The notes under the pieces were generated by a model. The model did no database searches. It was not told where the DNA came from and saw nothing but the letters and a program-made list of their open reading frames with translations. DNA of 55,320 bases from Syntrophales bacterium. GTDB lineage: Bacteria; Desulfobacterota; Syntrophia; Syntrophales; UBA2210. Within the stretch, counting starts at the first letter, position 1; each line of letters opens with the position of its first letter. Shown piece after piece: positions 10,386 through 17,202 of the stretch. A program made the position numbers and the translations under genes. The DNA lies in contig JAQULO010000007.1 in assembly GCA_028718565.1 (NCBI GenBank), positions 1-55,320 on the forward strand. The letters run 5' to 3'.

Positions 10386-10418
10386 CTCTCACAAGAAGGC
10401 GGCGTTTAAGGAGAGAAT

Positions 10419-11042
10419 ATGTCCGAATTTGCAACCCTTGAGTTGTTCTCAGATTACGTCTGACCCTGGTGCTACTTCATTACCGGGCGTATTGAGCAAC
10501 TCACAAGGGAATATCTGATCGACGTTCGATGGCGGGCGTTTCCCCTCCACCCGGACACACCGGAGGAGGGGCTTTCGGTCGAACAGCTTTTTGCCGGTCA
10601 TACCGTAAACTTGGAGAAGATAAGGGCTCGCCTGAGGGAGACTGCGGCTGATCTGGGACTCTCCTTCGAGGAGCGGGACAAGACCTATAACAGCCGCCTG
10701 GCCCAGGAATTAGGTTATTGGGCCGCTTCGAAGGATAAAGGGGAGGCTTTTCACAGGGAGGTATTCAGGGCCTACTTCGCAGAGGGAAAGAATATCGCAC
10801 AGGTTTCGGTGTTGGTGGACCTGGCCGACGCCATCGGGCTTCCCCGCGAAGAGGCACAGACAGTTCTCACAACAAGGGCGTTCAGGGCATCGGTGGATGC
10901 GGATTGGGCTCTCTCGCGCACAAAGGGAATCACAGCCGTTCCGACTTTTGTAATGAATCATGACACACTGGTTGGCGCCCAGTCCTACGGGGAATTAAAA
11001 AGGCTCGTAGAGGCAAACGGGGTCAAAGAGAGGACGATATAG
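10419..11042 (+). CDS. FrnE/DsbA-like thiol oxidoreductase, probable selenoprotein (UGA = Sec15)
   Basis: From an ATG at 10419 (AAGGAGAG just upstream) the frame runs 207 codons to 11042 with a single in-frame TGA at 10461-10463. The TGA lies exactly where FrnE/DsbA-like proteins have the first cysteine of the active-site CPWC: FSDYV-(TGA)-PWCYF. The sequence continues in family style through RWRAFPLHP, the helical insert with TYNSRLAQELG, and the cis-proline strand GITAVPTFV. The family contains disulfide-handling thioredoxin-fold enzymes of the cytoplasm. A SECIS-like hairpin follows the TGA. A conventional call would start at 10611 (TTG) and lose the catalytic domain. The CDF gene begins one base after the stop, so they are co-expressed. 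A sequencing error or nonsense mutation is the alternative, but nothing else is broken. Confidence 0.88.
10476..10496 (+). promoter_or_regulatory. Candidate bacterial SECIS element
   Basis: Downstream of the TGA, 10476-10483 (TTCATTAC) pairs with 10489-10496 (GTATTGAG), with one U-U mismatch and one U-G wobble. The five-base apical loop is CGGGC (10484-10488). The loop begins 20 nt after the TGA and has a G at its second position, as expected for bacterial SECIS hairpins. An alternative fold CCC-U-GGU/ACC-GGG (10464-10487) is possible. Confidence 0.6.
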
Positions 11043-11043
11043 G

Positions 11044-11931
11044 ATGAAACAGGAAATAACCGCCGATCATATTGGCCAGATCAAGAGAGTCACCTGGACC
11101 GGGCTCTTTGTTAATGTCGCCTTGGCGGCTTTAAAATTTATCGTCGGTTTTGTTGGCGCCAGCCAGGCGGTTATCGCCGATGCTGTCCACACCCTGTCCG
11201 ATATCGCCACCGACTTCTCGGTGATCGTGGGCGTACGATACTGGTCTGCTCCGCCTGATGAAGATCATCCTTACGGACATCGGAAGATTGAGACCATTAT
11301 CACCGTATTAATCGGTGCGGCCCTCGTTATCGTCGCACTCGGGCTAGGCTATAAGGCCCTATCGACCATCCGGCACCCCCACATCCGTCAAACCGCCTGG
11401 ATAGCCATTACCGGGCCGATCCTTTCCATTATATTGAAGGAAATCCTGTATCGTTGGACGGTTATTGTCGGTACACGGGTAAAATCAACGGCGGTTATCG
11501 CAAATGCGTGGCACCACCGGTCGGATGCCTTTAGTTCGGTACCGGCCGTCATGGCCGTCGCGGCATCTGCAATGAATCCCGATTGGGCCTTTGTAGACCA
11601 CGTTGGCGCTTTAATAATCTCCGTCTTCATCTTAAAGGTCTCCTGGGACATCATGAGTCCATCACTGGCAGAGCTTGCCGACCGCGGGGCTTCATTAAAA
11701 GATTGCGCCAAGATAGAGAGGATAGCGATGGATGTGAATGGGGTCAGAGGCGTCCATGCCATACGCACCCGTAAATGTGGCGAAAGTCTCTTTGTCGATC
11801 TTCATGTCGTCGTCGATCCGGAGATCTCTGTCCGTCTAGGGCATAACATCTCAGAAGAAGTCAAGGGAGCCCTCCTGAAGGGCGGTCCACGAATATTAGA
11901 TGTCGTTGCGCACCTGGAACCGGATGAATAA
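11044..11931 (+). CDS. CDF-family cation efflux protein
   Basis: A 295-residue cation diffusion facilitator that exchanges divalent metal (Zn, Fe, Mn or Co) for protons at the inner membrane. Metal-site motifs are visible in TM2 (ADAVHTLSDIATD, about residues 47-59) and TM5 (HHRSDAFSS, about 157-165). The HPYGHRKIET loop and a C-terminal cytoplasmic domain (GVRGVHAIRTRKCGESLFVDLHV) complete the family pattern. The ATG lies one base after the frnE stop, which links metal export to the redox protein. Specificity cannot be assigned. Confidence 0.92.
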   Translation: MKQEITADHIGQIKRVTWTGLFVNVALAALKFIVGFVGASQAVIADAVHTLSDIATDFSVIVGVRYWSAPPDEDHPYGHRKIETIITVLIGAALVIVALGLGYKALSTIRHPHIRQTAWIAITGPILSIILKEILYRWTVIVGTRVKSTAVIANAWHHRSDAFSSVPAVMAVAASAMNPDWAFVDHVGALIISVFILKVSWDIMSPSLAELADRGASLKDCAKIERIAMDVNGVRGVHAIRTRKCGESLFVDLHVVVDPEISVRLGHNISEEVKGALLKGGPRILDVVAHLEPDE

Positions 11932-11989: not shown

Positions 11990-12105
11990 ACACGGCAAGT
12001 TGGAGAAAAGCATTTTGAAGTGCAAAGATCGGTCGACCATGTCCATTAGAATTTGGAGGCCTTTTTTATTCAGTCATAATGGTAATCCGACTTTGAAAAA
12101 CTTAA

Positions 12106-12324
<219 letters not shown>

Positions 12325-12347
12325 ACAGTAGTGGTATTGAAAAGAAT

Positions 12348-12387
12348 GCACTCTGCGGTTTTTGTAAGCTGCAGAGTGCTTTTTTTT
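12348..12387 (+). terminator. Intrinsic terminator of the cold-shock gene
   Basis: A perfect 9-bp stem GCACTCTGC/GCAGAGTGC (12348-12356 and 12371-12379) with a 14-nt loop is followed directly by eight T (12380-12387). Confidence 0.92.
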
Positions 12388-14755: not shown

Positions 14756-14794
14756 ATCTCATCAGCATTTTCCCGGGCTTAGTTCTTTAAGAAA

Positions 14795-14873
14795 CTGATA
14801 AAGGCAAACTGCTCGTGAGGGTAGGACGCAAAGCCATGGGTCATCCATTTGATATGATTGCCAGGCTACCTAG
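14795..14873 (+). promoter_or_regulatory. Cyclic di-GMP-I (GEMM) riboswitch
   Basis: The conserved GEMM-I elements are in order: AAGGCAAA, a stem CTGCTC/GGGTAG closed by the GNRA tetraloop GTGA (14817-14820), GGACGCAAAGCC (14823-14834), a second variable stem-loop, and the 3' GCCAGGCTACC. This class binds c-di-GMP and controls genes for motility, adhesion, surface structures and secretion. The downstream operon encodes an HTH protein, an ExeA-like ATPase and a TPR protein. I cannot see a clear terminator or ribosome-site switch, so on/off polarity is open. Confidence 0.85.
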
Positions 14874-15221
14874 GTTTTTCCCTTCATAATTTGTTTTATA
14901 TCTCCGGCACATCGATTCAGCTATAACCTGATTCTCATTTCGCATTGTAATTCTTAAGATTCCAAATAACTGAAAAAGCATAAGTGCTTGGTTAATCATC
15001 ATATGTGACTTAAAATGCATGGCGATGGTACATGTTAAAATTGTTATTTTAAAGTTTCTTAGTCATTCCTGGTCGGACCGTGAAGAGATTGAGCAGAAAA
15101 GCCATCGGGGAGAATCTGTGTTGTGCAAAAAATCAAGCGACGAGGAAAACTCACGGCATATTATTAAGAAAGCACTTCTGCTGAATCAAAGTTCGTCATT
15201 GGGTTAGCAATGAGGAGTATT

Positions 15222-15773
15222 ATGGAAAAGATCTGCATTGTTCGAAGAAGAAAAAGAAACATTCAAGGAGTTGGACCGGGGGTAAACTATATCTCTGATA
15301 AAGAAATGATGCCGAATCAAGGTTTGGGCTTGGTTTTATCTCAAGCGGTGAAAAGTGATATCTGTGCAGATGAAAGGGGAAAGGCTCCTGTTGATGAAGT
15401 GGCTGTGGATAAAAATGAAATGATTTCCTTTAATTTGACTCCTGAGCAGTGCGAATTGATTCGGTCCGGCAATTTCGCTGAGTATTTGTCGAGTGGGTTA
15501 TCAATAGGTACGGCTCTCAATGTGCAGAAGGAGAAAGACGGGCAAATCAGCTTAAACTTTCATTTTGCTCGGGCAAATGCACTGAGGATGCTTCAAATAA
15601 AGCATGTATGCGAGATGCTGCAAATCAGCAGAAGTTTTTTGGGAAAGCTCGTCAAGACAAAAAGGCTGAAGAGCTATAAAATAGGCGGACTCAGGCGTTT
15701 TGCCTTAGAAGATATACTTGAGTTTCTTACCAGAAACGAATGTCTTGAAACGCCAGAGTATAAGGTGTTGTGA
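15222..15773 (+). CDS. DNA-binding protein with C-terminal excisionase-type helix-turn-helix
   Basis: A 183-residue soluble protein. The N-terminal 110 residues are unrecognised and contain a basic start (ICIVRRRKRN). The C-terminal part (about 120-170) has a MerR/excisionase-type HTH: HVCEMLQISRSFLGKLVK then a wing-like KSYKIGGLRRFALEDILEFL. I chose the ATG at 15222, 4 nt after GAGGAG, over the ATG at 15210. It is the first gene downstream of the c-di-GMP riboswitch and is followed by the ExeA-like ATPase 58 nt later. I infer it regulates or recruits for that unit; nothing else of a prophage is nearby. Confidence 0.75.
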   Translation: MEKICIVRRRKRNIQGVGPGVNYISDKEMMPNQGLGLVLSQAVKSDICADERGKAPVDEVAVDKNEMISFNLTPEQCELIRSGNFAEYLSSGLSIGTALNVQKEKDGQISLNFHFARANALRMLQIKHVCEMLQISRSFLGKLVKTKRLKSYKIGGLRRFALEDILEFLTRNECLETPEYKVL

Positions 15774-15831: not shown

Positions 15832-17202
15832 ATGTATTACGAATACTGGGGTCTGAGAAAACCGCCGTTTGACAATGTCCCCGATCCATCCATGTATGTG
15901 GACAGTCACGTGTCGATGGAGAACGCTATAGCAGAAACCATATTTGCTATAGAGGAGGGGGGGGAAAGTGTCGCAGTCATTGTAGGTGATGTGGGCTTGG
16001 GCAAAACCTTATCTCTGCGTATGATTATCGATTCTTTAGACCAGGAAAAATATAAAATAACTCTTATCACCAATCCGAGCATCACCTTTTCCCAACTGGT
16101 AAAAGAGATCATCGGTCAACTTACGGGGAAACCATGCGATAAAGCGAGAAAAGTGGACCTGCTGGAAATCTTCAACAAAATCTTGTTTGAGACCATAGAT
16201 GAAGGTAAAAAAGTTCTAATATTTATCGATGAAGCAAATGCCATATCTCCTGCAAACCTTGAAAACTTAAGATTACTTACCAACATGCAAGATGATCAAA
16301 GGAATTTATTTACCATGGTCCTTGCCGGGCAAAGCGAATTTGCCCGGCGACTGGAGCATCCCCGGCGAGCCAATCTGTTTCAGAGAGTAGGAACTTATAA
16401 CAAAATAGAAAAAATACAATCTGAGGCCTTATTGAAAGCCTATGCCGAAACCCGGGTCAAACTTGCGGGGGGAACGAGGAAGATTTTTACTGACGATGTC
16501 TTTAATCCATTATGGAAACACTCTGAGCATGGAGTCCCCCGTCTTATTAATAAAATCTGCAAATTATCGTTGAAGGCAGGTGAAACAAACGGGCTGGAAC
16601 TCGTTACTGGTGAGATGATTGACCAGATAGGTCAACGTTTTCAGAGGTCGTCTGGTTCCGTTTCACAAAAGAGAAGGCCCAGAAAAAGATTCGGGGAGGA
16701 AGTTATAGAGAAGGAAGCCCTGATGAGAGAGCTTGAAGCAGAAGAAGTCTTGGGGGATCACGAAAAACATATAACTGTACCGTTTATGGAGGACTCAGAT
16801 TCAAGGAGAGAGCCAGCTCCCGTTGAAAAACCCGCTTCGGTTGAAAATGTAACTATTGAAGAAAAAGGGCAACCCCATTTCGTTTTTGAAAAAGTCGAAT
16901 CAAATAAATTGCCACCGTGCCCCGGGGAAACCACCGCAGCTGAGCACAGAAAATCGGCAATAGTAGAGATTGGGGATATGAGGGCAACGGTAAGCCTTCC
17001 TCCCGAGATCCTTAAACAAGCTGGGTCCTGCTCTAGCAGGGAGCATCGCGTTAAGTTGGCGGGGGTTATGGCAGCACGGTTTCTTCAGCAACATCCAAAC
17101 TTTACGTCTTCACCCCTTTCTGATCCAGTTGACATATGGGGCAAAATTAGGGAATCCGTTCTGAATATGCTTGAGGAGGAAAAGAAACTTGGTGTGATGT
17201 AG
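15832..17202 (+). CDS. ExeA/GspA-like AAA+ ATPase
   Basis: A 456-residue protein opening with the family hallmark MYYEYWGLRKPPFDNVPDP. Walker A GDVGLGKT (52-59), Walker B FIDEAN (131-136) and the AAA lid segment ending GVPRLINKICKLSL follow. In type II secretion ExeA helps assemble the outer-membrane secretin through a peptidoglycan-binding C-terminus. Here the C-terminal 185 residues are a charged, unrecognised tail with no membrane segment, so the partner may differ; transposon TniB/IstB-like ATPases share this fold. GGAG precedes the ATG. The gene lies between the HTH and TPR genes in a riboswitch-led operon. Confidence 0.85.
   Translation: MYYEYWGLRKPPFDNVPDPSMYVDSHVSMENAIAETIFAIEEGGESVAVIVGDVGLGKTLSLRMIIDSLDQEKYKITLITNPSITFSQLVKEIIGQLTGKPCDKARKVDLLEIFNKILFETIDEGKKVLIFIDEANAISPANLENLRLLTNMQDDQRNLFTMVLAGQSEFARRLEHPRRANLFQRVGTYNKIEKIQSEALLKAYAETRVKLAGGTRKIFTDDVFNPLWKHSEHGVPRLINKICKLSLKAGETNGLELVTGEMIDQIGQRFQRSSGSVSQKRRPRKRFGEEVIEKEALMRELEAEEVLGDHEKHITVPFMEDSDSRREPAPVEKPASVENVTIEEKGQPHFVFEKVESNKLPPCPGETTAAEHRKSAIVEIGDMRATVSLPPEILKQAGSCSSREHRVKLAGVMAARFLQQHPNFTSSPLSDPVDIWGKIRESVLNMLEEEKKLGVM

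Follow-up and report, generated by a model that had tools for sequence, protein, structure and literature searches.

A Syntrophales bacterium very probably encodes a selenoprotein of the FrnE/DsbA type, a thiol-disulphide oxidoreductase in which a UGA at position 10461 would be decoded as the nucleophilic selenocysteine (Sec) with the help of a SECIS element. The gene lies in a 55,320-nt stretch of contig JAQULO010000007.1 (assembly GCA_028718565.1), hereafter the window (Table 1). The reading frame, the predicted fold, the Sec machinery of the genome, and the joint conservation of the codon and a downstream hairpin can all be seen in the sequence. Sec insertion itself is predicted, and is as well supported as this kind of evidence permits.

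Table 1. Features of the predicted selenoprotein locus and its downstream neighbour (positions in the window)
Feature	Position	Strand	Remarks
Ribosome binding site AAGGAG	10408..10413	+	5 nt upstream of ATG 10419; read from the sequence
FrnE/DsbA-type gene, predicted selenoprotein	10419..11042	+	207 residues, UPWC active site; PF01323 match
In-frame TGA, predicted selenocysteine codon (U15)	10461..10463	+	Same codon is TGA in 34/80 homologous loci
Putative resolving cysteine C18	10470..10472	+	Sole Cys of the protein; invariant in the 45-sequence alignment
Putative SECIS hairpin	10476..10496	+	4+3 bp stem around one mismatch; loop CGGGC at 10484-10488
CDF cation-efflux transporter gene	11044..11931	+	TIGR01297 219.1 bits, PF01545 137.3 bits

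The frame is open from the ATG to a TAG stop at 11040-11042, and the TGA is its sole interruption. An earlier, sequence-only reading of the locus had described a TGA in place of the first Cys of a CPWC motif, in a frame otherwise intact from a good ribosome binding site to its stop, and this description is borne out; of the span that it gave (10419-10640) the start is correct, but 10640 falls inside the gene. GGAG-type sites are likewise found upstream of the start in many Sec homologues. The same reading foresaw that an ordinary gene caller would report the C-terminal part only, and the list of open reading frames made with translation table 11 indeed holds 10611-11042 (TTG start), which leaves out the active site. 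This open frame is what speaks for the TGA being a true stop, either in a pseudogene or ahead of a functional shorter protein that starts at 10611. Such a product would be without the active site and would begin only halfway through the thioredoxin fold, however, and purifying selection acts on the sequence before as well as after the TGA: comparison with the closest homologue (L026) gives a dN/dS of ~0.12 over codons 1-64 and of ~0.18 over codons 65-207, so that the codons before the table-11 start are constrained too. Moreover, distant lineages have TGA as the fixed codon at this site, and P16, W17, and C18, which follow it, are invariant. We consider a true stop next to inconceivable. When the window was scanned for further genes with read-through, no second candidate emerged; by eye, the stops in the frames that came up look like ordinary ones, lying upstream of a gene or at its end.

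The homologue alignment that the earlier reading had proposed was built from 80 homologous loci, kept from a search of 84,980 species genomes. The aligned codon is TGA in 34 loci, TGC or TGT in 45, and TGG in one (L028), and Pro-Trp-Cys follows it in all 80. Records of the TGA loci come from Thermodesulfobacteriota, Myxococcota, Planctomycetota, Gemmatimonadota, Pseudomonadota, and SAR324; the closest homologue, from a Syntrophales MAG (L026, 87% identity), is among them. In the family to which the window belongs, the gene is present in 2/19 genomes, both of the window's genus and both with TGA. In the order, it is present in 49/149 genomes; nearly all matches that span residue 15 contain TGA, and in each of the 21 order-level TGA loci that were read out, the TGA belongs to a UPWC or UPFC motif. 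A plasmid search gave, among the matches listed, only Cys-type relatives of <60% identity. The genome is a draft (2.53 Mb in 153 contigs, 98.4% complete), and the TGA could in principle be a sequencing or assembly error for TGC or TGT in an ordinary Cys enzyme. The same TGA is nevertheless found in L026/L107 and in 33 further loci from independent assemblies, and conservation of the hairpin is confined to loci that have it, which reduces the chance of such an error to almost nothing.

The hairpin that follows the predicted Sec codon is located 20 nt past the UGA and has a 5-nt loop whose second base is G; its coordinates, loop sequence, and spacing had been given exactly in the sequence-only reading. 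A published model of bacterial SECIS elements specifies a loop of 3-9 nt, an upper stem of 4-16 bp, a G in the first two loop positions, a distance of 16-37 nt from the UGA, and a minimum free energy of <= -7.5 kcal/mol (PMC13188914), and the hairpin was found by hand to agree with these constraints. It is part of the minimum-energy fold of 10461-10511 (-12.0 kcal/mol). The folding energy is unexceptional compared to shuffled sequence (z = -0.33), and some homologues have a lowest-energy fold of the 51 nt that differs from the SECIS hairpin. Because folding energy alone is not significant, the case for a SECIS element rests on comparative evidence. Within the window, 978 TGA triplets occur on the + strand, and only the one at 10461 has, at that spacing, a stem of 4+3 bp and a loop in which G is the second base. 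Among homologues, the hairpin (at least 6/7 pairs and the loop G) is kept in 34/34 TGA loci vs 0/45 Cys loci; these counts share ancestry, so the hairpin and codon tests are not independent, and the Cys set serves as a matched control. In the alignment of TGA loci, 96.4% of cells are paired compared to 16-55% with a slid stem, compensatory changes have altered 8 cells on both sides vs 1.4 in shuffles, and the covariation score is 0.138 vs 0.077 in shuffles (reached by 0/500). The control alignment of Cys loci has no hairpin signal (49.6% paired). Synonymous codon identity points in the same direction. In TGA loci, it averages 0.80 over the 11 codons after the UGA vs 0.41 downstream, with 0.52 in the best other 11-codon stretch, whereas the corresponding values in Cys loci are 0.43 vs 0.48. 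As judged from these alignments, synonymous constraint under the hairpin is limited to the TGA group.

A search for selA, selB, selD, and selC, suggested by the earlier reading, located all four in the genome: selA (600.9 bits), selB (369.9 bits), selD (385.3 bits), and the tRNA-Sec (77.2 bits with a gathering score of 47; anticodon TCA according to ARAGORN). As the catalytic motif of selD (L023 1399-2451, - strand), GAGUACKIG, is itself encoded with an in-frame TGA, the genome holds a second, independent textbook UGA-Sec gene. Across the homologues, selA is above the cut-off in 31/34 genomes of TGA loci vs 9/16 genomes of Cys or Trp loci (Fisher p = 0.007); it was not found in 3/34 TGA-locus genomes, two of which have selB, a combination that fits incomplete MAGs. 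It could be argued that the UGA is read as another amino acid, e.g., Trp, through near-cognate suppression or a variant code, and the TGG of L028, a close homologue, might be taken as a sign of this. Against this stand the full Sec machinery, the use of TGG for the Trp two codons on, and the occurrence of Cys as the alternative in 45 loci. Besides, read-through of this type would by itself need no conserved SECIS hairpin, and we find it very improbable. Assembly error, a pseudogene, and alternative decoding were rejected on the TGA shared across loci, the purifying selection, the TGA-linked hairpin, and the Sec machinery, and Sec remains our reading of the codon. Next to selD, L023 40-1236 (- strand) encodes a multi-pass membrane protein that by eye resembles a YedE-type selenium-metabolism transporter.

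With the UGA read as a residue, PF01323 (DSBA) matches residues 6-195 (115.5 bits, cut-off 25.6), and the 207-residue product is the sole match to this family in the genome. The active site, U15-P16-W17-C18, is a UxxC motif within the domain. An AlphaFold2 model of the protein has a mean pLDDT of 94.8. FrnE of Deinococcus radiodurans is the top match in the PDB both by fold (5coh, TM 0.85 by query, 28% identity) and by sequence (2.7e-20), and Streptomyces SCO1869 is also among the best matches by either measure; a search of NCBIfam gave no family above its cut-off. Judging from the PDB matches, the protein has a FrnE-type DsbA fold and belongs to the FrnE subfamily (cd03024), with Sec where other members have the first Cys. 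An alignment of 45 sequences shows no variation at residues 15-18 (U/C, P, W, C) or at Pro175, which by homology is the cis-Pro. The fold is also matched by 2-hydroxychromene-2-carboxylate isomerase and kappa-class glutathione transferase (TM ~0.7-0.75 by query), at a low identity of 13-22%. These two enzymes are not known to have a redox CxxC pair, unlike the family described here, in which UPWC/CPWC is invariant.

The resemblance to D. radiodurans FrnE (DR0659; 5cnw, 5coh, 5xwh) extends from fold and sequence to the prediction of a cytoplasmic DsbA-like reductase. The two differ in that the D. radiodurans enzyme has Cys in its CPWC and a C-terminal CXXXXC that regenerates it, whereas the window protein has Sec and one Cys in all. 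The C-terminal CXXXXC of the subfamily was not found in the window protein. The motif is present in many, but not all, FrnE members, and its lack is not decisive for membership, since the FrnE proteins of S. roseofulvus and D. maricopensis are also without it (PMC8945050).

In the mechanism that we envisage, SelB with Sec-tRNA(Sec) would decode the UGA after recruitment by the SECIS hairpin within the coding sequence. U15 would then attack disulphides or other modified thiols with its selenol, and C18 would resolve the mixed selenide-sulphide. With C18 as the only cysteine, the enzyme probably depends on an external reductant for its regeneration, in which it differs from D. radiodurans FrnE. 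No N-terminal export signal was seen by eye, and the enzyme is probably located in the cytoplasm. We infer that it acts in the reductive direction, using a selenol as nucleophile to reduce or isomerise disulphides in the cytoplasm, and that it may have a role in oxidative or metal stress.

The gene for the CDF transporter starts one base past the selenoprotein stop, an arrangement shared with L026, and is a probable operon partner. One possibility, if a rather doubtful one, is that the two genes make up an operon for metal stress: the selenol enzyme would repair metal- or disulphide-blocked cytoplasmic thiols, and the transporter would export the metal. This fits with D. radiodurans FrnE being induced by cadmium (PMC8945050). 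No gene neighbourhood that could inform on function is conserved outside the genus, and because this applies to the pairing with the transporter, a role in metal stress is only a reasonable guess. If true, it would provide a functional setting for a selenoprotein family so far without one.

That DsbA-like proteins can contain Sec had been stated in the sequence-only reading, which left it undecided whether FrnE-type ones were described. They have been since 2005, when a survey of the Sargasso Sea listed a "DsbA-like protein" of COG2761 with UXXC, for which it had nine Sec sequences, complete with SECIS elements (PMC1088965); D. radiodurans FrnE is assigned to this same COG (PMC1978522). A list from 2006 includes DsbA-like proteins with Sec from Deltaproteobacteria (PMC1794560), the GOS data contributed 63 "DsbA 1" Sec sequences (PMC2398784), and a review and inventory from 2026 has a "DsbA-like protein form 1" with UxxC (PMC13188914). 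A literature search for FrnE and selenoproteins by name gave no relevant paper, the link running through COG2761. The window gene shares with this family the PF01323 domain, the COG of FrnE, Sec as the first residue of UxxC, a SECIS element directly downstream, and widespread Cys homologues; no separating feature was found in a comparison that, for the published representatives NIP15863.1 and AACY01178397, was by description. Given these earlier listings, we regard the gene as a further member of a family that is already known from computational prediction but apparently uncharacterised, and for which the literature searched contained no biochemistry. Our additions are small and consist of the organism, the CDF gene one base downstream, a UPFC subfamily in the order, and apparent Sec-to-Cys reversals that break the hairpin. 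The gene is a well-supported case of a selenoprotein that a caller using the standard code would truncate and deprive of its active site. Its homologues, 34 with Sec and 45 with Cys, are a clean set in which to study how a SECIS element constrains coding sequence and how the constraint is released upon replacement of Sec by Cys.

On a quick maximum-likelihood tree with the root not fixed, the Sec, Cys, and Trp states require 6 changes. Within a mainly Sec clade, the Desulfofustis-type homologues with Cys (L054, L058, L062, L064) group together with support. Their genomes retain selA, and the loci have retained much of the protein sequence but 3-5 of the 7 hairpin pairs. To the extent that an unrooted tree allows, this looks like reversal from Sec to Cys with release of the RNA constraint. 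The single TGG locus (L028 2431-3048) has an intact SECIS hairpin, and a search of its genome for selB gave no match over the cut-off; the TGG may be a sequencing error or a recent mutation or loss. The UPFC proteins (L111-L124) make up a second DsbA/FrnE-type subfamily in the window's order, ~31% identical and with TGA as the first codon of the motif. Their hairpin has the same geometry and distance and a different sequence, with mostly 5-7 of 7 pairs.

Elsewhere on the + strand of the window, a c-di-GMP-I riboswitch (RF03167, 65.3 bits) at 14794-14874 precedes two genes, one for an HTH_17 protein (15210-15773) and one for an AAA ATPase (15832-17202). A match to the cspA thermoregulator family at 12028-12380 (+) scores 79.7 bits, just above the gathering score of 78.
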